Of a stretch of 11,659 nt of DNA, positions 1 through 11,657 are shown piece after piece. Within the stretch, counting starts at the first letter, position 1. Every line of letters starts with the position of its first letter. This DNA is from Flavobacteriales bacterium (lineage in GTDB: Bacteria > Bacteroidota > Bacteroidia > Flavobacteriales_E > Vicingaceae). The position numbers and the translations under genes are program-made. Under the pieces are notes generated by a model. The model had not been told where the DNA came from and did not search any database. It was given only the letters and a program-made list of their open reading frames with translations. Where the stretch lies: NCBI GenBank assembly GCA_029262915.1, contig JAJCYN010000058.1:1-11659 (forward strand), read 5' to 3'.

Positions 1-876
1 GGTACAGAAAATATGACGCTTTCCCCAACGGTCAGTTTCGGAAATAGAATGGGCTATGGTTTGGGAAGAATTGATTTTAAAGATATGCTTTGGGAAGCGT
101 TGAATGATACTGCAGCAGTTCCTATGGGCTGCACAGCAGAAAATATAGCCGAAAAGCACGGTATTACAAAAGCTGATGCTAATGAATTTGCCAAGCAATC
201 TATCGATAAATATTTAGCGGCAAAAGAGCGAGGTTTCTTTGATGGTGAAGTCATTAAAATGAATTCTACCGTTTTTGAAATGGAAGGTCTAAATCCACGT
301 AAAGTAAGATTACCACGAAAAGCAGTTGACTTTACCACAGATGAGAACGTTCGTCCAGCAGATTTAGAATCGATGGCAAAATTACCATCTGTATTTGCTC
401 GTGATGGTGTTCAAAACGCAGCTAATTCGAGTGGTATTGTTGATGGAGCTGCTTCGGTAGTAGTAGCAAGTGGAGATTTTGTAAAAGAAAAAGGATTAAA
501 ACCATTATCAAGGGTAGTAGCATCTGCAACCAGTGCTTTAGACCCAAAAGTAATGGGATTAGGACCGGTTCCTTCTATTCAATTGGTATTAGAAATGGCT
601 GGTTTGACTTTAGATGATATCGGATTAATTGAAATTAACGAAGCCTTTGCAGCCCAGTTTTTAGGTTGCGAAAAGGAATTAGGATTGAACAGAGATATCT
701 GTAATGTAAATGGTGGAGCCATCGCTTTAGGGCACCCATTAGCAGCAACAGGAACTCGATTATCCTTAACACTATCAAGAGAGATGCAAGCTCGAGGAGT
801 TAAATATGGTATTGCTTCAGCTTGTATTGGTGGTGGACAAGGAACAGCAATATTATTTGAAAACCCTAATGTTTAG
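1..876 (+). CDS. Thiolase (acetyl-CoA C-acyltransferase), 3' part; probable 3-oxopimelyl-CoA thiolase
   Basis: This is the C-terminal 291 residues of a thiolase. The reading frame is open from base 1 and begins in the conserved GGTENM segment, so the ATG at base 13 is internal. Thiolases are usually about 390-400 residues, so roughly 100 residues, including the nucleophilic cysteine, lie upstream of the window. Visible family motifs are NEAFAA, then GGAIALGHPLAATG with the catalytic histidine (residue 245 of this fragment), and CIGGGQGTA with the second active-site cysteine (residue 275). The family cleaves 3-oxoacyl-CoA with CoA, in the cytoplasm. From its position before had-oah-dch I infer that it cleaves 3-oxopimelyl-CoA to glutaryl-CoA and acetyl-CoA; acetoacetyl-CoA is another possible substrate. 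The stop codon lies inside a dispersed repeat that is copied again after oah. Family assignment is firm, substrate is inference. Confidence 0.93.
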   Translation, partial: GTENMTLSPTVSFGNRMGYGLGRIDFKDMLWEALNDTAAVPMGCTAENIAEKHGITKADANEFAKQSIDKYLAAKERGFFDGEVIKMNSTVFEMEGLNPRKVRLPRKAVDFTTDENVRPADLESMAKLPSVFARDGVQNAANSSGIVDGAASVVVASGDFVKEKGLKPLSRVVASATSALDPKVMGLGPVPSIQLVLEMAGLTLDDIGLIEINEAFAAQFLGCEKELGLNRDICNVNGGAIALGHPLAATGTRLSLTLSREMQARGVKYGIASACIGGGQGTAILFENPNV

Positions 877-958
877 CCATTAGAAAATAGGCAAAAGTGA
901 ATAGTTAAAAACATAAACAAGTGAATACTAATGGCTATTGCCTAGTCACTAATAACTA
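871..958 (+). repeat. Dispersed two-arm repeat, copy A (between thiolase and had)
   Basis: The left arm (871-908) and right arm (927-958) recur at 3379-3416 and 3448-3479 in the same orientation. By eye, 35 of 38 and 31 of 32 bases match, while the spacers differ in sequence and length. The two arms hold complementary blocks (GCCATTAG with CTAATGGC, TAGGCAA with TTGCCTA, AGTGA with TCACT, TAGTTA with TAACTA), but the blocks run in the same order in both arms. They therefore cannot all pair in one simple hairpin. The left arm includes the thiolase stop codon. Confidence 0.85.
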
Positions 959-993
959 GAAAAAATAAAGAAATGACTGAAATAATAAAAGAC

Positions 994-1038
994 AAGCAAC
1001 CATCTTCCTCCCCTTCGGGGAGGACTGAAGAGGGGCTT
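994..1038 (+). repeat. G/C-rich palindromic repeat ending at the had start codon
   Basis: The core hairpin is CCTCCCC (1007-1013), a TTC loop, then GGGGAGG (1017-1023). Weaker outer pairs can form between CTTC (1004-1007, sharing base 1007 with the core) and GAAG (1027-1030), and between AAGC (994-997) and GCTT (1035-1038). The last base directly precedes the ATG at 1039. Related copies lie before oah and before korA, each ending in a run of G followed by CTT. An in-frame ATG at 973 would translate through this repeat. Confidence 0.8.
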
Positions 1039-2082
1039 ATGTATCAATGGCAAATGACAGCACTAAAAGAAGATTTTTCTTTGGTAGAATCTGAATTGCC
1101 AGCTATAAACGAAAATGAGGCAGTTATAAAAATTGCCGGTTGTGGTGTTTGCCACACCGATTTAAGCTTCTGGCACGATGGTGTTCGTACAAAAAAAGAA
1201 ATGCCATTAACGCTTGGTCACGAAATTAGCGGTGTTGTAATTGATGGTCCTGACCATTTAAAAGGAAAAAATGTAATCATTCCTGCCGTTTTACCTTGTG
1301 GAGATTGTGAATTGTGTAACAAAGGAAGAAGCAATATGTGTCAGAATCAATTGATGCCGGGCAATGATTTTCACGGAGGATTTGCCTCTCACATTACCGT
1401 TCCTTACCAATATTTATGTGAAGTTCCCGATTCATTACTCACTAAATATGACTTGGCAGAAGTCTCTGTAATTGCAGATGCCATTTCTACACCTTATCAG
1501 GTAATGAAAAAATCAGAATTACAAGAAGGTGATTTAGCCATTGTAATTGGCGTTGGAGGAGTTGGTGTTTATGGTGCTTTAATCGCTAAAATTATGGGAG
1601 CAAAAGTATTAGCAATCGACATCAACGATGAAAAATTAACCAATGCCAAGAAGCACGGAGTAGATGCTACCTTAAACTCCAAAGACTTAACCCATAAAGA
1701 AATCAAGGGAAAAGTAAGAGAGATTGCGAAAGAATTGGGTGCATCCAAATTCGGTTGGAAGATCTTTGAAATTTCAGGCACTACCCCTGGTCAGGAATTA
1801 GCTTTTAGTTTACTCACTTTCACCTCAACATTAAGCATCGTAGGGTTTACAATGGATAAACTCAATGTTCGGTTGAGCAACCTAATGGCTTTCGATGCTA
1901 AATTGATTGGTACTTGGGGATGCAAGCCGGAACTCTATCCAGAAGTGGTAGAGTTAATAGCCTCAGGAAAATTAGATATTAAGGACTTTGTAGAGACATT
2001 TCCAATGTCACAAATCAACGAAGTCTTTCAAAATACATTAGAACACAAATATGATAAACGTTCGGTTTTGGTACCGGATTAG
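1039..2082 (+). CDS. had: 6-hydroxycyclohex-1-ene-1-carbonyl-CoA dehydrogenase (Zn-dependent alcohol dehydrogenase family)
   Basis: The 347-residue cytoplasmic enzyme oxidises 6-hydroxycyclohex-1-ene-1-carbonyl-CoA to the 6-oxo compound with NAD+ in the benzoyl-CoA pathway. It is a medium-chain alcohol dehydrogenase. Catalytic-zinc residues are C38 (GCGVCHTD) and H61-E62 (GHE). The structural zinc is held by C87, C90, C93 and C101. The Rossmann motif GVGGVG is at 171-176, and D194 at the end of the second strand fits NAD rather than NADP. The segments YQWQMTA, DGVRT and LTLGHEISGV match my memory of Thauera-type Had. I chose ATG 1039 because conserved sequence begins there; the in-frame ATG at 973 would add 22 residues encoded mostly by a palindromic repeat. 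Lying directly before oah and near dch makes the specific call much safer than general alcohol dehydrogenase. Confidence 0.88.
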   Translation: MYQWQMTALKEDFSLVESELPAINENEAVIKIAGCGVCHTDLSFWHDGVRTKKEMPLTLGHEISGVVIDGPDHLKGKNVIIPAVLPCGDCELCNKGRSNMCQNQLMPGNDFHGGFASHITVPYQYLCEVPDSLLTKYDLAEVSVIADAISTPYQVMKKSELQEGDLAIVIGVGGVGVYGALIAKIMGAKVLAIDINDEKLTNAKKHGVDATLNSKDLTHKEIKGKVREIAKELGASKFGWKIFEISGTTPGQELAFSLLTFTSTLSIVGFTMDKLNVRLSNLMAFDAKLIGTWGCKPELYPEVVELIASGKLDIKDFVETFPMSQINEVFQNTLEHKYDKRSVLVPD

Positions 2083-2137
2083 CCCTTCCCGACCTCCCCA
2101 AAGGGGAGGAGATTCACCTCTTGATAGAGGGTAGGGA
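2082..2137 (+). repeat. Cloverleaf-like G/C-rich repeat after had
   Basis: Two hairpins, CCTCCCC-AAA-GGGGAGG (2093-2109) and CCTCT-TGAT-AGAGG (2117-2130), are enclosed by an imperfect closing stem, CCCTTCCC (2083-2090) with GGGTAGGG (2129-2136). The start of the closing stem abuts the had stop codon. The same architecture recurs at 6328-6385 after another gene of the operon. It could fold as an RNA three-way junction and affect termination or mRNA stability. Confidence 0.8.
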
Positions 2138-2198
2138 TGTGTTAAGATTAATAATTAAATGAAAAAGAATAATAATAAATAATAACAAGACTCTATTT

Positions 2199-2226
2199 CC
2201 CCCTTCGGGGGATTAAGGGGGCTTTT
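2199..2226 (+). repeat. G/C-rich hairpin repeat upstream of oah
   Basis: CCCCC (2199-2203), a TTC loop and GGGGG (2207-2211) are followed by ATTAA and a second G run, GGGGGCTTTT (2217-2226). The first C run could pair with either G run, so two structures are mutually exclusive. It belongs to the same family as 994-1038 and 6505-6537, but ends 12 bases before the oah ATG instead of adjoining it. Confidence 0.75.
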
Positions 2227-2238
2227 AAAACAAACGAT

Positions 2239-3339
2239 ATGGAATTACACAGTCACAATTTAGTAAAACATAACTACACCGATATTCTTTATGAATTAAG
2301 ACCAGCAAAAGATGTTGATGGTAACGAAGTTTCAGGATTATATAACGCCTGGATTATGTTGAACAATCCAACCCAATACAATTCATATACAACACAAGCC
2401 GTAAAAGAAGTAATTCTTGCAATGCGAGAAGCTTCTAACGACAGAAGTGTTGTTGCAGTAGTTTTTACAGCCGTAGGCGACAAAGCATTTTGTACCGGAG
2501 GAAACACCAAAGAGTATGCAGAATACTATGCCGGAAATCCTCAGGAATACAAACAATATATGCGTTTGTTTAACGATATGGTTTCTGCTATTTTAATGAA
2601 TGACAAGCCAGTTATTTGTCGAGCTAACGGAATGCGTATTGGAGGTGGACAAGAAATTGGAATGGCTTGTGATTTTACTATAGCTCAAGATTTAGCCAAG
2701 TTCGGACAAGCAGGGCCCAAGCACGGAAGTGCACCAGATGGTGGTTCAACAGATTTCTTACACCTATTTGTAGGGATTGAAAAAGCGATGGAATCCTGTA
2801 CCGTTTGTGACCCTTGGAGTGCTCACGAAGCACTAAGGTTAGGTTTGTTAACTGAAGTTGTTCCTGCGTTAAAGGTAGATGGGGAGTTTGTAAATAATCC
2901 AATGGTGAGAACAGACAGATGGATTAGCAAGAAAACAGGTCAGATTATTTACGGAATGCCTAAAAAAGGAGATGCTTTAGCAGAAGGAAAAGCTTTATTC
3001 AAATCTGGAGAAGTTGATTTATCTTTATTGGATACCGCAGTGGAAAAAATGTGTACGAAACTAATGATGACTTTTCCGAACTGTTTGAGCAAAACAATTA
3101 ATTCTATCCGAAAGAAAAAATTAGAACATTGGGATGCTAACAAAGAATCGAACAGAGATTGGTTAGCACTCAATATGATGACAGAAGCGAAAGCTGGTTT
3201 TAAAGCATTTAATGATGGCCCAAGAGGAAACAGAGAAGTAGATTTTATAAAACTAAGACAATTATTGGCTGAAGGAAAAGAATGGGATGAATCGGTTCAT
3301 CAAACAATTTCGCCACAGTATCAAAATACGGAGGTGTAA
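2239..3339 (+). CDS. oah: 6-oxocyclohex-1-ene-1-carbonyl-CoA hydrolase (ring-opening)
   Basis: The 366-residue protein belongs to the crotonase superfamily and is called Oah in facultative and BamA in obligate anaerobes. It adds water to 6-oxocyclohex-1-ene-1-carbonyl-CoA and hydrolytically opens the ring to 3-hydroxypimelyl-CoA. The sequence shows blocks I recognise as nearly invariant in this family: GLYNAWI (33-39), NPTQYNSYTT (43-52), SNDRSVVAVVFT (66-77), CTGGNTKEYAEYYAGNPQEY (85-104), and MRIGGGQEIGMACDF with the oxyanion-forming glycines at 135-137. FGQAGPKHGSA follows. Length is close to the roughly 375 residues of characterised members. This gene is widely used as a marker for anaerobic aromatic degradation, because generic enoyl-CoA hydratases lack these blocks and are about 100 residues shorter. 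It is the most specific functional anchor in the window. Confidence 0.96.
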   Translation: MELHSHNLVKHNYTDILYELRPAKDVDGNEVSGLYNAWIMLNNPTQYNSYTTQAVKEVILAMREASNDRSVVAVVFTAVGDKAFCTGGNTKEYAEYYAGNPQEYKQYMRLFNDMVSAILMNDKPVICRANGMRIGGGQEIGMACDFTIAQDLAKFGQAGPKHGSAPDGGSTDFLHLFVGIEKAMESCTVCDPWSAHEALRLGLLTEVVPALKVDGEFVNNPMVRTDRWISKKTGQIIYGMPKKGDALAEGKALFKSGEVDLSLLDTAVEKMCTKLMMTFPNCLSKTINSIRKKKLEHWDANKESNRDWLALNMMTEAKAGFKAFNDGPRGNREVDFIKLRQLLAEGKEWDESVHQTISPQYQNTEV

Positions 3340-3378
3340 TTAGTCAGTTTCAGTGATTTAAGAAACGAACCTCTCAGT

Positions 3379-3479
3379 GTTTAGGCATTAGAAAAGAGGC
3401 AATAGTGAATAGTTAAGAAGAATATAATTGAAATATTGATAAGCAAAACTAATGGCTATTGCCTAGTCACTAACAACTA
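3379..3479 (+). repeat. Dispersed two-arm repeat, copy B (between oah and dch)
   Basis: This is the second copy of the repeat at 871-958, in the same orientation, with arms at 3379-3416 and 3448-3479 and a longer spacer of 31 bases instead of 18. In this copy AGGCAATAG (3397-3405) and CTATTGCCT (3456-3464) form a perfect nine-base inverted repeat. It ends eight bases before the dch ATG. Copies A and B together bracket had and oah. Confidence 0.85.
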
Positions 3480-3487
3480 AATAAAAA

Positions 3488-4261
3488 ATGGAAAAATTAA
3501 GATTAGAATATTCTCATAACAACACGGTAGCCAACATCATTTTAGATGATGGAAAAGGCAATGTGCTGGATAACACGATGATGTTAGAAATGTTAGGATT
3601 GTTTAATGATTTTAAAAAGAACAAAGACATCAAGCTCATCACATTTCAAGGAGAAGGAAAACACTTTTCTTTTGGAGCGAGTGTTCCAGAACACACTAAA
3701 GATTTAGCTCCATTGATGATTGAAACTTTCCACACCATATTTTATGAAATCATAGAATTAAGTATTCCTACAATGGCAATAATCTCAGGGCAATGTTTAG
3801 GTGGCGGAATGGAATTGGCATTAGCCTGTAATTTTATGTTTGCTGATAAAACAGCAGTTTTGGCTCAGCCAGAAATCATTTTAGGTGTTTTTCCACCACC
3901 GGCATCCATTATGTTACCCTTAAAAATTGGGAATGCCAGAGCAGAAGAAATCTTGCTGACAGGTAGAAATATTAAAGCTGAAGAAGGTAAAGAAATAGGA
4001 TTGCTCAATAAAGTTTTTGAAGATAAAGAAGCCTTAAATACTGGAGTTGAAGAATGGATAACTAAAAACATCTTGCCAAAAAGTGCTTCTTCATTAAAAT
4101 ATGGAGTAAAAGCTGCTAGAGCAACATTTAATTACATTATGAATAACAAATTACCTTATTTAGAAGAACTTTATGTAAAACAATTAATGGAAACTAATGA
4201 TGCCAACGAAGGCATTAATTCATTTTTAGAAAAAAGACAACCCGTTTGGGAAAACTGCTAA
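3488..4261 (+). CDS. dch: Cyclohexa-1,5-diene-1-carbonyl-CoA hydratase (dienoyl-CoA hydratase)
   Basis: The 257-residue crotonase-fold enzyme hydrates cyclohexa-1,5-diene-1-carbonyl-CoA, the product of benzoyl-CoA reductase, to 6-hydroxycyclohex-1-ene-1-carbonyl-CoA. That product is the substrate of the neighbouring had. Visible features are HFSFGASVPEH (59-69), the region before the first oxyanion position, then GQCLGGGMELALAC with E109, and AQPEI with E129, the twin glutamates of hydratases. GVFPPPAS (133-140) follows, where ordinary crotonases have a GxxPGxGG segment. The FSFGASVPEH and PPPAS features resemble Dch/BamR and argue against a housekeeping crotonase. The size fits the family. 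The start is the only ATG that leaves the N-terminal beta strand intact. The specific call rests on motifs and on placement beside had and oah. Confidence 0.88.
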   Translation: MEKLRLEYSHNNTVANIILDDGKGNVLDNTMMLEMLGLFNDFKKNKDIKLITFQGEGKHFSFGASVPEHTKDLAPLMIETFHTIFYEIIELSIPTMAIISGQCLGGGMELALACNFMFADKTAVLAQPEIILGVFPPPASIMLPLKIGNARAEEILLTGRNIKAEEGKEIGLLNKVFEDKEALNTGVEEWITKNILPKSASSLKYGVKAARATFNYIMNNKLPYLEELYVKQLMETNDANEGINSFLEKRQPVWENC

Positions 4262-4263
4262 TC

Positions 4264-4300
4264 CGTTAAACGTTTAAAACGTTCTAACGTTGAGACGTTA
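4264..4300 (+). repeat. CGTT-rich short repeat between dch and the fusion gene
   Basis: Five CGTT units begin at 4264, 4271, 4280, 4288 and 4296. They make a perfect palindrome TTAAACGTTTAA (4266-4277) and a small hairpin TAACGT-TGAG-ACGTTA (4285-4300), all in a 53-base gap. It could be another dispersed repeat or a regulator site; nothing in the window decides between them. Confidence 0.5.
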
Positions 4301-4314
4301 AAAAACTAATTAAT

Positions 4315-6318
4315 ATGAAAAAAATAAAAACAGTAGGAGTAATTGGAGCTGGAACAATGGGTGCAGCTATTGCTCAAAAATTTGCACAAGAGGGATTTAC
4401 CGTTTATTTAAACGATAGAGAACAGCAATACATTGACAAAGGAGTTGCAGGAATTAGAGCAATTCTGGAGCAAGGAGTAGAACGAAGATTGTTTACCCAA
4501 GAGAAAGTAGAAGGAATCCTTGGTAACATCAAAGGCACTACTAATCAAGAAGATTTAAAGGTTTGTGATTTAATTGTAGAAGCTATTTTCGAAGACTTTG
4601 AAGTAAAATCAAATCTTTTCAAAACCTTAGATAAAATTGTGCCTACTGATACTATTTTGGCAACAAATACTTCCTCGTTTTCTGTTACAGAATTGGCAGA
4701 AGCAGTTTCTCATCCAGAACGATTTATCGGATTACACTATTTCTTCCACGCTGCAAAAAACAGGTTAGTAGAAATTATTCCTGGAGCAAAAACATCTGAA
4801 GAGACTTACAAAGCAATGCAAGTATTCTCTGTACAATCAGGAAAAGATGCCATTACCACCAAAGATGTTTATGGATTTGCAGTCAATCGATTTTTTGTGC
4901 CTTGGCTCAATGAAGCCTGTAAAATGCTAGATGAGGGAATAGGAACTATTGCGGAAATTGATACCGTTTGTATGAAAACATTTGGAATAGGAATGGGTCC
5001 ATTTGCCTTAATGAACGCTACTGGAGTTCCTATTGCTTTACACGCTCAAAAAACATTAGAACATTTCGGACCATCTTATAAAATTGCTAAAAAATTAGAA
5101 GAACAAGTAGCAACAGGTAATGATTGGAGCTTAGATGGAATGGACAGTGTGAACATCACACCTGAATTAACTAAAGCAGTAAATGACAGAATTTTAGGAG
5201 TTACTTTCTTTGTCTGTTCTCAAATTTTAACCGAAGAAGTTTGTACTGCTGTTGATTTAAATCGCGGAGCAAAAATTGGTTTACGCTGGAGAAAAGGGCC
5301 AGTTGATTTAATGCAACAATTTGGAGAATCAGAAGTGGTAAGAATTGTTTGTGAATACGCAAAATTGTATAATGAGCAAATCCCGGAAGGAATAGAAACG
5401 AAAAGTTGGGAAATGGAATTTGTCACTTTAGATGTAAACGGAAGTGTGGCTACCATTACGATGTCTCGTCCCGAAGATATGAATGCCCTAAACGAAGAAG
5501 TAATGGGACAACTGGATTGTAAATTTTCTCAAGCAGATGCGCGTCCAGATATTGATACAATTATTTTAACAGGTTCAGGAAAAGCTTTTGTAGCTGGTGC
5601 AGATATTAAATTCTTTGTAAAAAACATTAAATCCAATTCAATAGATAACATTGTCACCTTTACCAAATATGGTCAGGAAGTATTAGAAAAAATAGATAAG
5701 TCCTCCAAAAAAATAGTTGCCATTTTAAATGGTTTAGCATTAGGTGGAGGAATGGAGTTGGCATTAAGTGCTGATGTATTGTTAGCCGTTCCAAAAACAA
5801 AAATTGCTTTCCCAGAAACAGGAATTGGAATCTATCCAGGATTAGGCGGAACACAACGTTCAGCTTTAAGAGTAGGAAAAGGATTGGCAAAATATTTAGT
5901 CTTAACTGGCCAAATGTTAGGAGCCAAACAAGCCTTAGAAATTGGTTTAGTGGATGCCATCATTCAACCTTCAGAAGTTTTTGATTTAATTTCAGGAGAA
6001 AAAGTAATTCCAGAAAAAGCAACAATTGAACTTTCTGATAATTGGAAAGCTGTAGAATCACTTTATTCAAAAAATAATTACAAATCTATTATAGCTGGAG
6101 AATATTCTAATGGAGGAATGGAAGCCGATGCTGTAGCAAAACTGGGTAAAGCAATGAGTTTTAAAGCTCCTATTGCAATGGATTTTTCAGAAGAATTAAT
6201 CGAAGCAGCCGAAGGCCCTTCTTCTGAGTTAGATAAATTAACAGCTATTTTCACAACTAAAGATGCCTTATTAGGATTAACTTCCATTGGCAAGCGAGTG
6301 GAATATAGTGGGGAGTAA
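4315..6318 (+). CDS. Bifunctional 3-hydroxyacyl-CoA dehydrogenase / enoyl-CoA hydratase, dehydrogenase domain first
   Basis: This 667-residue fusion starts with a 3-hydroxyacyl-CoA dehydrogenase. It has the NAD-binding motif GAGTMG (11-16), NTSSF, the catalytic histidine H141, LVEII with the partner glutamate, and AVNRFF leading into the helical C-terminal domain. A crotonase domain begins near residue 367. It shows AGADIKFF, GGGMELAL with E481, and FPETGIGIYPGLGGTQR with E501, so the hydratase glutamates are present. The order is opposite to FadB and like the crotonyl-CoA hydratase/3-hydroxybutyryl-CoA dehydrogenase fusions of archaea. The usual GLHFFNP motif after H141 reads GLHYFFH. In this operon the dehydrogenase can oxidise 3-hydroxypimelyl-CoA, the product of Oah. 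The hydratase is not needed for that step, so I infer it may act on crotonyl-CoA formed from glutaryl-CoA, making the protein serve two stages of the pathway. Confidence 0.88.
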   Translation: MKKIKTVGVIGAGTMGAAIAQKFAQEGFTVYLNDREQQYIDKGVAGIRAILEQGVERRLFTQEKVEGILGNIKGTTNQEDLKVCDLIVEAIFEDFEVKSNLFKTLDKIVPTDTILATNTSSFSVTELAEAVSHPERFIGLHYFFHAAKNRLVEIIPGAKTSEETYKAMQVFSVQSGKDAITTKDVYGFAVNRFFVPWLNEACKMLDEGIGTIAEIDTVCMKTFGIGMGPFALMNATGVPIALHAQKTLEHFGPSYKIAKKLEEQVATGNDWSLDGMDSVNITPELTKAVNDRILGVTFFVCSQILTEEVCTAVDLNRGAKIGLRWRKGPVDLMQQFGESEVVRIVCEYAKLYNEQIPEGIETKSWEMEFVTLDVNGSVATITMSRPEDMNALNEEVMGQLDCKFSQADARPDIDTIILTGSGKAFVAGADIKFFVKNIKSNSIDNIVTFTKYGQEVLEKIDKSSKKIVAILNGLALGGGMELALSADVLLAVPKTKIAFPETGIGIYPGLGGTQRSALRVGKGLAKYLVLTGQMLGAKQALEIGLVDAIIQPSEVFDLISGEKVIPEKATIELSDNWKAVESLYSKNNYKSIIAGEYSNGGMEADAVAKLGKAMSFKAPIAMDFSEELIEAAEGPSSELDKLTAIFTTKDALLGLTSIGKRVEYSGE

Positions 6319-6327
6319 AAAGCCCAT

Positions 6328-6385
6328 CCTCAACCCTTCCCAAAAGGAAGGGAGACTTTCCCTCTAAAAAGAGGGGTTTAAGAGG
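6328..6385 (+). repeat. Cloverleaf-like G/C-rich repeat after the fusion gene
   Basis: Hairpin CCCTTCC (6334-6340) with GGAAGGG (6346-6352) and hairpin CCCTCT (6360-6365) with AGAGGG (6370-6375) lie inside an imperfect closing stem. That stem is CCTCAA (6328-6333) against TT (two of 6377-6379) and GAGG (6382-6385), with a small bulge. The architecture is the same as at 2082-2137, while the stem sequences differ with compensating changes on both sides, which suggests selection for the fold. Confidence 0.8.
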
Positions 6386-6406
6386 TGTGTAAAATATAAT
6401 TAGAAC

Positions 6407-6480
6407 GTCATTGCGAATCTTATTAAGAATTAAATATGTTTTAATGTCTATCCTTCGATAAACTCAGGATGACATTAAAA
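6407..6480 (+). repeat. GTCATTGCGAAT fragment plus long hairpin of the TGTCATCCTGAG type
   Basis: GTCATTGCGAAT (6407-6418) also occurs as the left end of the complete element at 8392-8498. It is followed by a hairpin of TTTTAATGTC (6439-6448) and ATCCT (6450-6454) with AGGAT and GACATTAAAA (6466-6480). That gives 15 pairs with one bulged base. Read on the minus strand, the loop side gives TGTCATCCTGAGTTTATCG, a repeat word I know as widespread in bacterial genomes. Confidence 0.75.
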
Positions 6481-6504
6481 TTTGGAATACAAAATAATTA
6501 CAAA

Positions 6505-6537
6505 CCTCTCCCCTTTGGGGAGATTAGAGAGGGGCTT
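6505..6537 (+). repeat. G/C-rich palindromic repeat ending at the korA start codon
   Basis: TCTCCCC (6507-6513), a TTT loop and GGGGAGA (6517-6523) form a seven-base hairpin. CCTCTC (6505-6510) can instead pair with GAGAGG (6527-6532), so two alternative folds compete. The repeat ends in GGGGCTT directly before the ATG at 6538, exactly as the copy at 994-1038 does before had. Confidence 0.8.
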
Positions 6538-8376
6538 ATGAAAACAGAATTAGAAAGTGTAGTTATCAAATTTGCCGGAGATTCAGGTGATGGAATGCAA
6601 TTGGCAGGTTCCTTATTTACCGAAACTACGGCTAATATTGGAAATCAGATAGCAACATTTCCAGATTTTCCATCAGAAATACGAGCTCCACAAGGAACAG
6701 TAGCTGGTGTTTCTGGATATCAAATTCATTTTGGAAAATCAGGAGTACACAGTCCCGGAGATGCTCCGGATGTATTAATAGCAATGAATCCTGCCGCATT
6801 ACAAGCCAATTTACATAATTTAAAACCAGCGTCCACTATTATTATTGATAGTGATACCTTCAAGAAAAAAGACTTTGAAAAAGCAGGATTTGATGGTAAT
6901 CCATTAGAAGACAATACGTTTTCCGATTACAAAGTAATAGAAGCACCCATTACTTCTTTAACCAAAACAAACATTACCGATTTAGGGTTAGACAATAAAA
7001 GTATGGTACGCTGCAAAAATATGTTTGCATTAGGAATGGTGTACTGGTTATTTAATGAGCCGCTGGAAAAAACAATCAATTTCTTCGATAATAAATTTAA
7101 GAAGTTACCAGCAGTATGTGAAGCCAATAAACGCACTTTACAATCAGGACACAATTATGCTGAAACGATAGAAGCATTAACCTCATCGTTTACTGTTTTA
7201 CCAGCAAAAAAACAACCCGGCACTTACAGAAATATTACAGGAAATCAAGCAGCAGCTTGGGGCTTTTTAGCAGCAGCAGAAAAAGCCAAAAAGGACTTAT
7301 TTTTAGGAACCTATCCCATTACTCCAGCCACAGATATTTTACACGAACTCACCAAACACAAATGGGCAGGTGTGAAAATTGTACAAGCCGAAGATGAAAT
7401 TGCAGGGATTTGTTCTGCAATCGGAGCCAGTTTTGCTGGTGATGTAGCCATAACCACAACTTCAGGACCAGGAATGGCGTTAAAAACTGAAGCTATTGGA
7501 TTGGCTGTTATGACAGAATTGCCATTGGTAATTGTTAACGTTCAACGAGGTGGGCCATCTACAGGATTACCGACCAAAACAGAACAAAGCGATTTACAAC
7601 AAGCGCTATATGGACGAAATGGAGAAAGTCCTCTAGTGGTTCTTTCAGCAAGTACACCAGCCGATTGTTTCGATTGGGCTTTTGAAGCTACTCGAATTGC
7701 TTTAGAGCATATGACTCCAGTAATTCTGCTAACAGAAAGTTACATTGGTAACGGAGCAGAACCTTGGAAAATAAAATTAACCGAAGAATTGCCAGACATT
7801 CATCCAAGAACTTTAGATAGCTATGATGAGAATTGGAAACCTTATGACAGAGATACCGAAAAATTAGCACGACAATGGGTTGTTCCTGGAACCAAAGGAA
7901 TGGAACACCGAATTGGTGGTTTAGAAAAAGACGAGTGTACGGGTTGTGTCTCTCACAATCCACAAAACCACGCCATAATGGTAGCTACTCGTCAGAATAA
8001 AATTGACAAAATCGCGGACTTCATCCCTTTACAAAAATACAAAGGAAAGGATGCTACTAAATTATTGGTTGTGGGTTGGGGAGGTCAGTTTGGTATTTTG
8101 TTTGGAGCCGTAAACGATTTGCAAAAAGAAGGAAAAAACATTGCCTTTACTCATTTTAACTACATCAACCCACTACCAAAAAACACGGCAGAAATCTTTG
8201 CCAAATTCGATAGAATATTGGTCTGTGAATTAAATAACGGGCAGTTTGCTGATTATTTAAGAGCTCAATTCCCACAATTTACCTACGAGCAGTTTAATAA
8301 AGTAGAAGGATTGCCTTTTAAAATTAAAGATTTGAAAAATAAGTTTAACGAAATGTTGGAGGCAGGTAATGCCTGA
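6538..8376 (+). CDS. korA: 2-oxoacid:ferredoxin oxidoreductase, fused gamma-alpha subunit (probable 2-oxoglutarate type)
   Basis: This 612-residue subunit works with the downstream KorB to decarboxylate a 2-oxoacid, probably 2-oxoglutarate, to the acyl-CoA while reducing ferredoxin. The N-terminal gamma domain (about 1-190) opens with KFAGDSGDGMQ (11-21). The alpha domain follows, with YPITP (259-263) and conserved EDEIAGICSAIGASFAG and TTTSGPG segments of the thiamine-diphosphate-enzyme pyrimidine domain. The C-terminal domain has LLVVGWGGQFG. Both the fused order and the length match two-subunit enzymes common in Bacteroidota. I start at ATG 6538 because the gamma domain begins there; the in-frame ATG at 6469 would add 23 residues of repeat-derived sequence. 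Placement in a benzoyl-CoA operon matches Thauera-type clusters, where Kor re-reduces the ferredoxin used by benzoyl-CoA reductase. 2-Oxoglutarate specificity is inferred; a housekeeping TCA-cycle role is also possible. Confidence 0.88.
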   Translation: MKTELESVVIKFAGDSGDGMQLAGSLFTETTANIGNQIATFPDFPSEIRAPQGTVAGVSGYQIHFGKSGVHSPGDAPDVLIAMNPAALQANLHNLKPASTIIIDSDTFKKKDFEKAGFDGNPLEDNTFSDYKVIEAPITSLTKTNITDLGLDNKSMVRCKNMFALGMVYWLFNEPLEKTINFFDNKFKKLPAVCEANKRTLQSGHNYAETIEALTSSFTVLPAKKQPGTYRNITGNQAAAWGFLAAAEKAKKDLFLGTYPITPATDILHELTKHKWAGVKIVQAEDEIAGICSAIGASFAGDVAITTTSGPGMALKTEAIGLAVMTELPLVIVNVQRGGPSTGLPTKTEQSDLQQALYGRNGESPLVVLSASTPADCFDWAFEATRIALEHMTPVILLTESYIGNGAEPWKIKLTEELPDIHPRTLDSYDENWKPYDRDTEKLARQWVVPGTKGMEHRIGGLEKDECTGCVSHNPQNHAIMVATRQNKIDKIADFIPLQKYKGKDATKLLVVGWGGQFGILFGAVNDLQKEGKNIAFTHFNYINPLPKNTAEIFAKFDRILVCELNNGQFADYLRAQFPQFTYEQFNKVEGLPFKIKDLKNKFNEMLEAGNA

Positions 8377-8391
8377 TATAATTAATAACCC

Positions 8392-8498
8392 GTCATTGCG
8401 AATTAATTTTTATGTCATACTGAGTGCGAACGAAGTATCTATAAAAATTAAAGAAGCAATCTCATCAAGAATAAGATTGCTTCATTCCTCGCAAAGAC
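8392..8498 (+). repeat. Composite three-way-junction repeat filling the korA-korB gap
   Basis: The outer stem pairs GTCATTGCGA (8392-8401) with TCGCAAAGAC (8489-8498), with one mismatch. Inside lie TTAATTTTTAT (8403-8413) with ATAAAAATTAA (8441-8451), a perfect 11-base stem, and GAAGCAATCT (8453-8462) with AGATTGCTTC (8474-8483), a perfect 10-base stem. The loop of the first stem carries a second repeat word, GTCATACTGAGTGCGAACG, closed by ATACT (8417-8421) with AGTAT (8434-8438). The whole structure ends 15 bases before the korB start and could tune the KorA:KorB ratio. Confidence 0.85.
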
Positions 8499-8513
8499 GC
8501 AAACGATAAAAAA

Positions 8514-9539
8514 ATGGAAGAAGCAACATTAGAATGTCCGTTAAAACCAAAAGATTTTGCCAGCGACCAGGAAGTAAAATGGTGTCCCGGCTGTGGTGAC
8601 TATGCGGTACTCAATGCCGTAAAACGAGCATTGGCAGAGCTAAACATAAAAAAAGAAGATGCCACTTTTGTTTCTGGAATTGGGTGTTCTTCCCGATTTC
8701 CATATTATGTGGATACTTATGGCTTCCATACCATACACGGTAGAGCAGCAGCCATTGCAACAGGCGTAAAAGTGGCGAACCCGAACTTAAGCGTTTGGGT
8801 AGCATCAGGAGATGGCGATTCATTAGCAATTGGAGGAAACCATTTTATCCACGCCATTAGACGTAATATAAATATGAACCTGATTTTGTTTAACAACGAA
8901 ATTTATGGTTTAACCAAAGGACAATATTCTCCCACTTCAGAACGAGGAAAAGTAACCAAATCTTCGCCTCACGGAACAGTAGAAGACCCATTTAACCCCG
9001 CTGAATTGGCTTTAGGTGCACAAGGTAGTTTTTATGCCCGAGTACCCGATACCGATGTAAAATTGATGACCAGCGTAATGGTAGAAGCAGAAAAACATCA
9101 AGGGTTATCATTAGTTGAAGTATTACAAAACTGTGTGATTTTTAACGATAAAGTACACGCTGCCATTACTGGTAAAGAAACCAAATTGGACAATCAACTC
9201 ATTTTAGAACACGGACAGCCAATGCTGTTTGGAGCAGAAAAAAATAAAGGACTCCGCCTAAACGGATTGGATTTAGAAGTAGTTACTATTGGAGAAAATA
9301 ACATCACCGAAGCGGATATCTTAATCCACGATGAAACTTTAGTTAATCCTACTTTACACTTTATGCTAAGCCGTATGCAATTACCCGAGTTCCCCATTGC
9401 AATGGGAGTGATAAGAAACGTAAATAAAAACGTATACGACCAAGCCCTACACCAACAGCGTGCAGATGAAAAGACAAACAGCAAATTTGCTTCCCTCAAT
9501 GACTTGTTTTTGAGTGGGAATACTTTTAAAGTTGTTTAG
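8514..9539 (+). CDS. korB: 2-oxoacid:ferredoxin oxidoreductase, beta subunit (probable 2-oxoglutarate type)
   Basis: The 341-residue catalytic partner of KorA binds the diphosphate end of thiamine diphosphate and the single [4Fe-4S] cluster. GDGDS (99-103) followed by NNEIYGLTKGQ (127-137) is the Mg-thiamine-diphosphate motif of the family. C24 and C27 in WCPGCGD, C58 in GIGCSSR and C207 in LQNCVIFND are the expected four iron-sulfur ligands. No extra ferredoxin domain is present, so an external ferredoxin is needed. Length fits two-subunit Kor enzymes. It follows korA after a 137-base gap occupied by a structured repeat, an unusually long spacing for two subunits of one complex. In this operon the likely job is to make reduced ferredoxin for benzoyl-CoA reductase. 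The family is certain; the 2-oxoacid used cannot be read from the sequence with certainty. Confidence 0.9.
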   Translation: MEEATLECPLKPKDFASDQEVKWCPGCGDYAVLNAVKRALAELNIKKEDATFVSGIGCSSRFPYYVDTYGFHTIHGRAAAIATGVKVANPNLSVWVASGDGDSLAIGGNHFIHAIRRNINMNLILFNNEIYGLTKGQYSPTSERGKVTKSSPHGTVEDPFNPAELALGAQGSFYARVPDTDVKLMTSVMVEAEKHQGLSLVEVLQNCVIFNDKVHAAITGKETKLDNQLILEHGQPMLFGAEKNKGLRLNGLDLEVVTIGENNITEADILIHDETLVNPTLHFMLSRMQLPEFPIAMGVIRNVNKNVYDQALHQQRADEKTNSKFASLNDLFLSGNTFKVV

Positions 9540-9598: not shown

Positions 9599-10981
9599 TT
9601 ACTTTATGATCAATTTTGTAGATTTCTCTTTTTGTTCGGTATGAACATTAATCAAATACATTCCTGTAGCTAAATTATAATTGGTAAAATCTATTTTATT
9701 GTTACCATAACTTAAAGATGTTGATGAGCTAAAAATGAGGGCTCCATTTAAGTTATATATTTTAATTAAAACATTTTCTATAGACGCATTTACTACTATA
9801 TTTACTTCATTGATATTTCCATTTAAATCCATTTGAAAATTGCCATCCTCACAAATTGAAACAGTTATTTTATCATTATAAGTATGAGCTTCTCCATCAA
9901 AATCAACTTGTGTTAACCTGTAATATGAAATTTGGTTGGAATTATTATCCTCAAATTTATAATTTATGGGTTGATTGGAATTTCCATTTCCTTGTACCCT
10001 TCCAATAGTTGCAAAACTATTTTCATTGTCCATTTTCTCTACTAAATAATAATCACAATTTATTTCTGAAGCAGTAGTCCAATTTATTTGAGTTGTACCG
10101 TCAACACATTTAGCATTAAATGCTACCAATTCAACAGGTAAAGGATTGCTTGAAGAAACAGATCCTAATGTAAATAGATTAAAATTAGTAACAACATTTG
10201 AAATAATGCTCCCTGAGGAAGTGTTTCCAGTAGTTCCTGCATTTCCTTCGTCAGTCCATAAAGAACCATCCCAACGAACCACACTTAAATCAACAAGATT
10301 ATTTACCCCGCTAGCTGTATCCCAATACAATGAAACATTTACATCGCTAGTTCCATTCGTTCTATCCAATGCCCAATATTCAATACTACTTACATTGTAT
10401 ATGCTTGGAGCTAATAATGACACATTGTATAATGGATTAGGGTTTTGATTGTAATAAGAAGCCGTAAAATGGTCTGAAATGCTAGTTGGAGCCGTAATTG
10501 CTATTGGTGCATATTTACCATTATTTCCTATAGGGAATAGAAAAGCATCGTTACCTACTTTTCTACAATTCCCATTGATATATTTAATCATATTATTTCC
10601 AGTAATTATAGCATTGTCGTTTATGGTTATGTAATTCGTATTTGTATTCAATAAACCATTAGAAAAAGTAAGCATATCATTAATTACATTATATCCAGTA
10701 CTTAAAAGACTAACTCCATTGCTATTATTTATAGTAAGATGATAAAAATCGTTATTGCTCGATCCTAAGATGCTTCCATAAGAAGACCCTGAAAATATTA
10801 AATTTCCTGTACCTATAATATATGTCCCACTGTTCATAAAATTACCATCCGTAATTTCAATTGATGTATTTCCAATAGATTCTATGGAGCCACTTGCAGG
10901 AATTTCTATTCCTTGCGCAAAAAAATTTTGCAGTATAAAAAATGAAGTGATGATTAATACTATTCTCAATTCCGCTACCAT
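9599..10981 (-). CDS. T9SS type A sorting domain-containing secreted protein
   Basis: The 460-residue protein is exported by Sec and then probably by the type IX secretion system. ATG at 10981 gives a signal peptide, MVAELRIVLIITSFFILQ, ending in FFAQ. A TTG-initiated frame from 11029 would put 16 residues before it and overlap the upstream gene, so I reject it. The middle region is rich in Asn, Ser, Thr and Gly with short beta-strand repeats, and contains FLFPIGN and YWALDR segments common in large Bacteroidota surface proteins. Next comes the module starting LPVELVAFNAKC and running to YYRLTQVDFDGE, which usually precedes the sorting signal. The last 80 or so residues form the type A sorting domain, with VLIKIYNLNGALI, GMYLINV and terminal KLIIK. 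Substrate or binding partner is unknown; surface adhesion is possible. It lies 19 bases after the small exported protein's gene, so the two probably form one transcript. Confidence 0.85.
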   Translation of the reverse strand: MVAELRIVLIITSFFILQNFFAQGIEIPASGSIESIGNTSIEITDGNFMNSGTYIIGTGNLIFSGSSYGSILGSSNNDFYHLTINNSNGVSLLSTGYNVINDMLTFSNGLLNTNTNYITINDNAIITGNNMIKYINGNCRKVGNDAFLFPIGNNGKYAPIAITAPTSISDHFTASYYNQNPNPLYNVSLLAPSIYNVSSIEYWALDRTNGTSDVNVSLYWDTASGVNNLVDLSVVRWDGSLWTDEGNAGTTGNTSSGSIISNVVTNFNLFTLGSVSSSNPLPVELVAFNAKCVDGTTQINWTTASEINCDYYLVEKMDNENSFATIGRVQGNGNSNQPINYKFEDNNSNQISYYRLTQVDFDGEAHTYNDKITVSICEDGNFQMDLNGNINEVNIVVNASIENVLIKIYNLNGALIFSSSTSLSYGNNKIDFTNYNLATGMYLINVHTEQKEKSTKLIIK

Positions 10982-11000
10982 AATAAAATGAATTAAATAG

Positions 11001-11657
11001 TTATTTAATATATTCTGAATGACTCCCAACTGTACTTATCTCATAATGAAAATCTAATGAAATAGCTCCAGCATTTGCATTATAAGTATCATCTGCATCA
11101 CTTGAATCCCTCCAAATACGACAAATCAATACACTTGAAATTTTTTTACCTGTACCATCTATACCAACACCACCTGAAGTTAAGGCAGTAATTAAACTAG
11201 TGGTAGCTGTAAATGGTCCGGTAGCTACTACAGTACTTGTTGTAATTGCTGGAAATACTTCTGGTGTAGTTGGATTATAATTTGCCCAGGTATATTCAAA
11301 ATTCCATTCAACATTACCTGTTCCTGTATTTTTAGGCACCCAATGTATATGCGGATAAATGGTTGTCCCTTCTTTCCAGGTATGAGGAATTTGAACGGTA
11401 AAAGACATTGCTTCTACCGATTGATTATCACGAAAAAACCAAATCTGAGGACCAGAGCTACCTGTTAGATAACCCATCTTTGAAGCATCTTTCCCTTTAT
11501 CTAATGTTACCCTTAGATCATCCCAAACGGTAGCAGTACTATCCATTCTTAATGTGCCATCAGCTTCTACAACTAAATTGTTATTAATTTTTACTTCCTG
11601 AGCATAAATAAGACTTGAGACTATAATTAAAGTAAATAATATAATTTTTCTTTTCAT
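11001..11657 (-). CDS. Exported beta-rich protein of unknown function, phage-structural-like
   Basis: The 218-residue protein starts two bases inside the right edge of the window and is complete. It has a signal peptide, MKRKIILFTLIIVSSLIYAQ, with cleavage expected after AQ. The mature part is predicted beta-rich from its alternating pattern. It includes VWDDLRV, IWFFRDNQ, VQIPHTWKEGTTIYPHIHW, WNFEYTWANYN, GKKISSVLICRIWRD and a final LDFHYEISTVGSHSEYIK. From memory these segments resemble structural proteins annotated in phage and metagenomic sequences, but I cannot test that here and would not assign a function. No membrane helix follows the signal and there is no sorting domain, so periplasmic location or secretion is open. 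It is probably co-transcribed with the T9SS cargo gene; the promoter lies outside the window. Confidence 0.75.
   Translation of the reverse strand: MKRKIILFTLIIVSSLIYAQEVKINNNLVVEADGTLRMDSTATVWDDLRVTLDKGKDASKMGYLTGSSGPQIWFFRDNQSVEAMSFTVQIPHTWKEGTTIYPHIHWVPKNTGTGNVEWNFEYTWANYNPTTPEVFPAITTSTVVATGPFTATTSLITALTSGGVGIDGTGKKISSVLICRIWRDSSDADDTYNANAGAISLDFHYEISTVGSHSEYIK

Follow-up and report, generated by a model that had tools for sequence, protein, structure and literature searches.

From what substrate would a Flavobacteriales bacterium draw the benzoyl-CoA for an anaerobic ring-cleavage pathway? The question is raised by an 11,659-nt stretch of DNA (hereafter the window), the entire contig C58 of genome bin G000. 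The window is confirmed to be the middle of the gene set for anaerobic (class I, ATP-dependent) benzoyl-CoA degradation in this order of bacteria, its gene content being observed directly and its reactions assigned by analogy. This core is of a known kind in an under-described host; what is new is a module of a CoA ligase, a dehydratase subunit that we call HGD3 and a ketopantoate-reductase-like (KPR) enzyme with an activase, which lies outside the window. We put the chance at slightly better than even (roughly 0.53) that the window covers a class I operon from its middle to its end and that the extra module of this operon, judging from its enzyme families, would make benzoyl-CoA from aromatic amino acids.

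The window encodes the middle of a benzoyl-CoA degradation pathway

The bin comprises 2.76 Mb in 536 contigs and is 72.6% complete, with 2.39% contamination. Open reading frame (ORF) calling, followed by scans of the proteins with NCBIfam and Pfam models against family cut-offs, placed seven plus-strand genes in positions 1–9539 of the window and two minus-strand genes in the remainder. A preliminary description of this DNA had taken Had, Oah and Dch as the diagnostic middle section of the pathway. This holds for Had (6-hydroxycyclohex-1-ene-1-carbonyl-CoA dehydrogenase, 973–2082; TIGR03201, 455 bits over a cut-off of 338.65), which is also near the solved enzyme PDB 7qul/7quy (362 bits), and for Oah (6-oxocyclohex-1-ene-1-carbonyl-CoA hydrolase, 2239–3339), which at 587.4 bits exceeds the curated equivalog cut-off of TIGR03200 (464.45) by 123 bits. 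The assignment of Dch (3488–4261) is softer: TIGR03189 is its best family, but its 210 bits fall below the cut-off of 292.5, and we name it a probable cyclohexa-1,5-diene-1-carbonyl-CoA hydratase.

The flanking genes agree with the same description. An acyl-CoA thiolase at 1–876 (TIGR01930, 275.4 bits over 240.55) is represented by its C-terminal 291 residues, the 5' end being cut by the contig edge, and a fusion of 3-hydroxyacyl-CoA dehydrogenase and enoyl-CoA hydratase follows Dch at 4315–6318 (Pfam 3HCDH_N, 3HCDH and ECH_1). The last two plus-strand genes encode the alpha (6469–8376; TIGR03710, 647.1 bits over 482.75) and beta (8514–9539; TIGR02177, 262.8 over 261.9) subunits of a 2-oxoacid:acceptor (ferredoxin) oxidoreductase. 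The subunits were thus correctly recognised as KorAB-like, and KorAB is the likely name; these two models do not separate 2-oxoglutarate from other 2-oxoacids, and the substrate implied by the name is not fixed by them.

Comparison with the nearest relatives suggests that Had probably starts near 1039 (relatives L008 and L009) and KorA near 6538 (L008), the longer ORFs reading through a short GC-rich repeat (1011–1041 in Had). Such GC-rich elements lie at 1011–1041, 2083–2108 and 6508–6540, two of them spanning the apparent starts of Had and KorA, and longer intergenic repeats at 870–973 and 3378–3494 form two similar pairs of blocks (86% and 90%).

Ring reductase and extra module lie on two further contigs of the bin

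The ring reductase, noted as absent from the window, is present in the bin, where HGD-D proteins led us to two further contigs, C235 (stretch L094) and C78 (stretch L093). C235 encodes BcrC (433.7 bits over 421.15), BcrB (653.7 over 486.55) and the first 135 residues of BcrA (92.4 bits), which is cut at the contig end. We rejected BcrC as a BzdN-like six-cysteine protein, as only three of the six BzdN cysteines align in our reading of the alignment; six cysteines of another pattern, common to MbdN, occur in 7/7 BcrC sequences, and we claim no cluster type from them. Adjoining bcrC (L094:3434–5320) are genes that read as an iron-sulphur repair di-iron protein-like gene and as Rrf2-type and Crp/Fnr-type regulators.

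The second contig, C78 (5.8 kb), carries in order the end of an acyl-CoA ligase gene (last 106 residues, L093:1–321; 80.8% identity to L010), HGD3 (an HGD-D protein of 405 aa), a 632-aa KPR-like/activase fusion (TIGR00745, 160.9 bits over 141.35; TIGR00241, 164.3 over 125.4), a tryptophanase/tyrosine phenol-lyase family gene (L093:3985–5382) and the N-terminal 95 residues of a thiolase (L093:5553–5837), inside which the contig ends. Because the thiolase halves of C78 and C58 leave a gap of 33 residues against each of the four full-length relatives compared, C78 is very probably the contig immediately before base 1, separated from it by some 99 bases. A 23-base direct repeat (96%) borders a segment of some 565 bases (L093:309–896) between the ligase and HGD3, a pattern that an insertion or a local duplication would leave. 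We dropped a tyrosine phenol-lyase (TPL) identity for the gene before the thiolase, and do not claim a phenol route, because tryptophanase fits better (512 versus 478 bits) and the residue at the position of TPL Arg381 is Ile.

No benzoate-CoA ligase was found in this 72.6% complete bin (best match 31.8 bits, cut-off 375.25), so benzoate is not an evident entry substrate; one of 20 relatives has such a ligase over the cut-off.

The module recurs in related operons

A scan of 84,980 species genomes gave at least 590 stretches, of any phylum, encoding an Oah relative, and the best 80 were kept (L008–L087). Locus counts refer to these 80, with neighbouring genes clustered by BLAST with Louvain splitting, and loci do not equal genomes (L050 and L057 share one). 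Adjacency counts use 76 loci, leaving out L073, L082, L083 and L085, in which ORF selection had picked a longer antisense frame instead of Oah. Oah has Had as its immediate upstream neighbour in 62/76 loci and Dch as its immediate downstream neighbour in 62/76.

The operon can be seen on the single contigs of two genomes of the phylum, G324 (3.86 Mb, 99% complete) and G089 (2.84 Mb, 100% complete). The order in G324 is BcrC, BcrB, BcrA, BcrD, AMP-forming ligase, HGD3, KPR, an FAD subunit and a molybdenum subunit (xanthine dehydrogenase family, read as Hcr-like), activase, thiolase, Had, Oah, Dch and hydroxyacyl-CoA dehydrogenase/hydratase; BcrB, BcrC and BcrD (322.6 bits over 312.85) pass their cut-offs and BcrA stays below (430.8 of 578). 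G089 has BcrC, BcrB, BcrA, a 373-aa gene, BcrD, ligase, HGD3, a KPR-activase fusion, thiolase, Had, Oah, Dch and the fusion enzyme, with Hcr-like genes adjoining. From these two gene orders, bcrCBA and bcrD would precede the ligase in G000 as well.

The conserved module thus consists of a CoA ligase, one alpha-type 2-hydroxyacyl-CoA dehydratase subunit (HGD3) and the KPR-like enzyme, the last fused to the activase in 29/80 loci; an Hcr-like cluster is found in 25/80, and hemerythrin-like genes adjoin the hcr-like genes. HGD3 falls on the alpha side of the HGD-D tree (support 100/100), and its nearest solved relative is HadB; a structure model was made of the L010 HGD3, not of the C78 copy. The alpha-subunit [4Fe-4S] Cys triad is kept in 46/46 aligned sequences, together with Glu55 and Ser37, two residues that have roles in HadB. 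Equivalents of HadB Ser37 and Glu55 in BzdO are given in excerpts of PMC11971306. The activase has HadI as its best PDB match, in line with the TIGR00241 score of the C78 fusion. The KPR-like enzyme belongs to TIGR00745 only; among its best PDB matches is 3wfi (66.4 bits), which we take to be D-mandelate dehydrogenase, that is, a KPR-family enzyme acting as a D-2-hydroxyacid dehydrogenase.

The C-terminal domain of the AMP-forming ligase carries a four-cysteine motif of the CFCPRSLDELGRCLTGC type in 7/7 and 18/19 of the ligases longer than 500 aa (clusters 11 and 13; L010–L087). In ten loci this domain forms a separate protein of some 150 residues, with the motif in 10/10; eight of these loci have an ADP-forming ligase gene just before HGD3, and two are cut by the contig edge. 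In several loci with the ADP-forming ligase, the separate protein is encoded next to HGD3. The domain could hold a metal or an iron-sulphur cluster and serve HGD3; in the Bam-type loci seen, no gene for it was within reach. A full-text search of open-access papers, with preprints outside its scope, found no paper describing the module, and a word search of PMC10803450 gave no Bacteroid- term.

A possible route from aromatic amino acids to ring cleavage

A KPR, a CoA ligase and a HadB-like dehydratase with its activase are the set needed to turn a 2-oxoacid into a 2-enoyl-CoA. We therefore propose that a transaminase would convert aromatic amino acids into phenylpyruvate or 4-hydroxyphenylpyruvate, that the KPR-like enzyme would reduce the arylpyruvate to (R)-aryllactate, and that the ligase would form aryllactyl-CoA. 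HGD3, switched on by the activase, would then remove water to give cinnamoyl-CoA (or coumaroyl-CoA) without a HadC-type beta subunit, and the fusion enzyme and thiolase could hydrate, oxidise and thiolytically cleave cinnamoyl-CoA to benzoyl-CoA and acetyl-CoA. The (R) configuration agrees with excerpts of PMC11971306, in which 2-hydroxyacyl-CoA dehydratases (HADs) take the (R) form of their substrate. The coumaroyl-CoA branch would lead to 4-hydroxybenzoyl-CoA, to be dehydroxylated by the Hcr-like molybdoenzyme, and such a product would account for Hcr-like genes lying within the operon or close to it. By analogy with known homologues, benzoyl-CoA reductase (BCR) reduces the ring at the expense of ATP, with electrons from ferredoxin; the ring is then hydrated by Dch, oxidised by Had and opened by Oah to 3-hydroxypimelyl-CoA, which the fusion enzyme and thiolase cleave to glutaryl-CoA and acetyl-CoA. 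KorAB could recharge the ferredoxin.

More tentatively, and with the odds against it, Bacteroidota and neighbouring phyla may possess an undescribed anaerobic route for phenylalanine and tyrosine via (R)-aryllactate, cinnamoyl-CoA and benzoyl-CoA, in which a beta-less HGD3 would act as a homodimer or with the four-cysteine (CFCPRSLDELGRCLTGC type) ligase domain.

HGD3 accompanies Oah and three types of ring reductase

Oah passes its cut-off in four of 395 sampled genomes of the phylum, G000 among them, and HGD3 exceeds 700 bits in the same four. The HGD3 profile was built from 12 sequences that include those of G000 and G089, so that these two had to match; the matches in G324 and G190 are independent of it. 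Without G000, itself selected for its Oah, the pairing is 3/3 versus 0/391, a result with a chance of about one in ten million (1 in C(394,3)) under random placement if relatedness is ignored. Plain operon linkage does not explain the pairing in G190, because its HGD3 and Oah lie on different contigs (C37 and C76).

This pairing bears on the alternative that survives best, a plain benzoate or mixed-aromatics operon in which the ligase is an unusual benzoate (arylcarboxylate) CoA ligase and HGD3 and KPR serve some other 2-hydroxyacid, such as 2-hydroxyglutarate or 2-hydroxyisocaproate. The ligase leaves room for it, since neither its AMP-forming nor its ADP-forming type tells the substrate, and HadB, the nearest solved relative of HGD3, is named for 2-hydroxyisocaproyl-CoA. 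However, the presence of HGD3 and Oah in the same 4/395 genomes ties the module to aromatic CoA esters, as do the Hcr-like genes inserted within it in G324, and we regard this alternative as rather unlikely.

PF06050 (HGD-D) matches were counted in 49 genomes (30 + 19), their identity resting on family models in G000 and G324, on BLAST in G089 and elsewhere on place and score. Exactly three matches, read as BcrC, BcrB and HGD3, occur in 39 genomes, the single-contig G089 and G324 among them; four genomes have one match and six have four or five. These six are G006, with the extra pair described below, G190, with a weak fourth match (47.9 bits), and four others, among which there are partial matches. 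The reductase of G190 is of the Bzd type, with BzdN (482.7 bits), BzdO (658.5) and BzdQ (444.3) each over its cut-off, and HGD3 is present there too. In the four single-match genomes (G005, G427, G428 and G429) the match is of the HGD3 type, and all four have an AFOR-family gene at 240–242 bits; among seven comparison genomes, five have none and two have a lower-scoring one (about 152 bits). One such gene, L020:3688–5670, is BamB: over its whole length (residues 1–651) it matches 4z3w_A ('Benzoyl-CoA reductase, putative') at 1240.9 bits, an entry that we take to be Geobacter BamB, and it adjoins genes for an ADP-forming ligase, KPR, Had, Oah, Dch, HGD3 and activase. We accordingly rejected HGD3 as a reductase subunit: found with Bcr-, Bzd- and Bam-type enzymes, it cannot belong to any one of them.

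A second alternative, that HGD3 is an alternative alpha subunit pairing with the BcrC (or BzdN) of the reductase, so that one beta subunit would serve two enzymes, would suit both the 39/49 genomes with BcrB, BcrC and HGD3 as their exactly three HGD-D matches and the alpha-side position of HGD3 in the tree. It is set against the 4/49 genomes with a single HGD-D match of the HGD3 type, all with an AFOR-family gene of which the one checked is BamB, although these are metagenome-assembled genomes (MAGs) of which completeness is not established. In Bam-type genomes, to judge from these MAGs, no BcrC is available to HGD3. We consider such sharing improbable. We have not filed HGD3 as a canonical 2-hydroxyacyl-CoA dehydratase, because in 39/49 genomes no gene for an alpha-beta partner was found; sharing of BcrC is possible in Bcr-type genomes.

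Evidence against the amino-acid route

Several observations weigh against a route from aromatic amino acids. Membership of the KPR family does not fix the 2-oxoacid, and the ligase, belonging to families that are not diagnostic of substrate, may act on another acid. HADs are described in excerpts of PMC11574389 as alpha-beta heterodimers in which the beta cluster stores an electron between turnovers, and 39/49 genomes have no further HGD-D gene that could supply a beta subunit for HGD3. In G006, an extra HGD-D pair (254 and 145 bits) is present beyond BcrB, BcrC and HGD3, and in G190 HGD3 stands alone, apart from KPR and Oah. For the HcrA-like protein of G089, 4-hydroxybenzoyl-CoA reductase is the best family, at a whole-protein score of 806.2 that lies below the cut-off of 994.55; a cut piece of an HcrA-like protein in G000 reaches 578.2 bits against the same cut-off. 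BcrD was not found among the PF01869 matches of the 72.6% complete G000. At L008 and L011, genes read as aminotransferase and IorB-like adjoin the operon and also fit a phenylacetyl-CoA route. Finally, the operons of G089 and G324 have no adjoining korAB, and only 6/80 loci contain both a KorA and a KorB cluster, so that korAB in the window is a minority arrangement and a coupling of KorAB to BCR is not general. The sparse occurrence of korAB and the extra pair in G006 slightly lower our confidence in the route. At L008 (Flavobacteriales bacterium NORP67), the genes that precede the operon (797–6167) read as IorB-like, HcrC-, HcrA- and HcrB-like and aminotransferase.

The operon might also run in the reducing direction, making benzoate or cyclohexanecarboxylate during fermentation, as in the fermentative cyclohexanecarboxylate formation known from Syntrophus. 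Against this, ATP-dependent reduction would fit degradation in a respiring host, and according to excerpts of PMC11971306 facultative anaerobes commonly have reductases of class I, which makes a reductive operon very unlikely.

Host and distribution

The host is a member of the Flavobacteriales, according to a type IX secretion system (T9SS) cargo gene on C58 and RpoB in the bin. The cargo gene, outside the pathway (9599–11029, minus strand), is real, as first described (Por_Secre_tail TIGR04183, 32.6 bits over 23; PF18962), and RpoB (contig C325; 500 residues searched) shares 97% identity with a Vicingaceae MAG and 91% with Vicingus serpentipes. The product of the other minus-strand gene (11001–11657) is 218 aa long, has a start resembling a signal sequence and matches no Pfam or NCBIfam family at E 0.001. 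Contamination or chimeric contigs, to which the fragmented bin (536 contigs, 2.39% contamination) and relatives in bins titled Patescibacteria and Parcubacteria might point, are scarcely credible in view of the T9SS gene on C58, the Flavobacteriales RpoB and the operon on the single contigs of G089 and G324. We saw no sign of a chimeric contig, and in relatives the operon sits on contigs as long as 600 kb that are titled Bacteroidota. Two bins titled Parcubacteria and Patescibacteria (L043 and L072) carry the operon or its Oah, probably as mis-binned contigs.

A Bacteroidota carrier of the pathway, as the preliminary description had proposed, is therefore borne out, while its novelty stands in part: 58 of the 76 loci in the Oah tree are titled Bacteroidota (six are Ignavibacteriota, the others Zixibacteria, Calditrichota and so on), and a Flavobacteriales MAG with such enzymes has already been reported (PMC8099898, in part). 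The tree holds 80 sequences (the 76 loci, the window and three further genomes) and groups the window with NORP67 (L008) and a bin titled Chlorobiota (L009), whose Oah proteins, at 95% identity, are the closest among the matches listed. Named phyla do not form clades in it (10 changes for Bacteroidota versus a shuffled mean of 12.1), and we therefore claim neither vertical descent nor transfer. The placement of Oah within its characterised family, tested in part, rests on the TIGR03200 model that it passes, the tree being one without characterised Oah/BamA; a search of the plasmid collection for named Oah references gave no match at E 1e-60. Downstream of the operon, both nearest relatives encode a multihaem cytochrome-like protein in which the CxxCH motif occurs several times (L008:17255–18469 and L009:6633–7862).

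Comparison with known systems

In anoxic waters and sediments, where Bacteroidota are major degraders of protein, this material supplies a large amount of aromatic carbon. If the proposed route is correct, part of the bcr and oah genes read as pollutant degradation capacity in environmental metagenomes would represent amino-acid catabolism. In Bacteroidota, a single operon would then lead from aromatic amino acids to cleavage of the ring through a pathway in which a Stickland-type radical dehydratase is joined to ring reduction, and a beta-less radical dehydratase would bear on whether a second iron-sulphur cluster is needed for electron recycling.

Denitrifying Thauera and Azoarcus possess a Bcr-type class I gene set, and the system described here resembles it in its bcr, had, oah, dch and kor-like genes, with Had, Oah, BcrB and BcrC over equivalog cut-offs. 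It differs in its Flavobacteriales host, in that no benzoate-CoA ligase was found and Dch is below the cut-off, and in the embedded ligase-HGD3-KPR/activase module. Thauera and Aromatoleum are known to degrade phenylalanine anaerobically via phenylacetyl-CoA and phenylglyoxylate. In a strain of Desulfococcus multivorans that grows on phenyllactate, a cluster is said to act the other way round, turning phenyllactate into phenylpyruvate (excerpts of PMC5109826).

With the clostridial (R)-2-hydroxyacyl-CoA dehydratases (HadBC/HadI and FldBC), HGD3 shares its alpha-subunit residues, fold and activase. Unlike for them, no gene for a beta subunit was found in most genomes, its activase is fused to a KPR-like enzyme in many loci, and it is placed within a ring-cleavage operon. 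FldBC is a phenyllactyl-CoA dehydratase. As a single HGD-D subunit with its own activase, HGD3 is also like the double-cubane cluster protein DCCP, which is homodimeric (PMC11971306, in part).

The closest precedent for the chemistry comes from the benzene degrader BzS1, for which excerpts of PMC13416013, which also name FldBC, propose the same path from 2-oxo-3-phenylpropanoate (phenylpyruvate) through cinnamoyl-CoA to benzoyl-CoA via phenyllactyl-CoA dehydratase, a dehydratase-domain protein having been detected beside a likely acyl-CoA synthetase. BzS1, unlike the host here, is a sulphate reducer growing on benzene. The FldB-like protein of this organism (30% identity) went undetected, and these excerpts describe no placement in a benzoyl-CoA operon. 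The closest precedent for the host is the Flavobacteriales koll-22 MAG 18 from a nitrate-reducing benzene culture, which shares the affiliation and expresses enzymes of anaerobic benzoyl-CoA degradation, with no gene cluster or amino-acid route described in the excerpts of PMC8099898. According to the same source, this MAG also expresses extracellular peptidases and peptide uptake systems, a combination that fits amino acids as the source of benzoyl-CoA.

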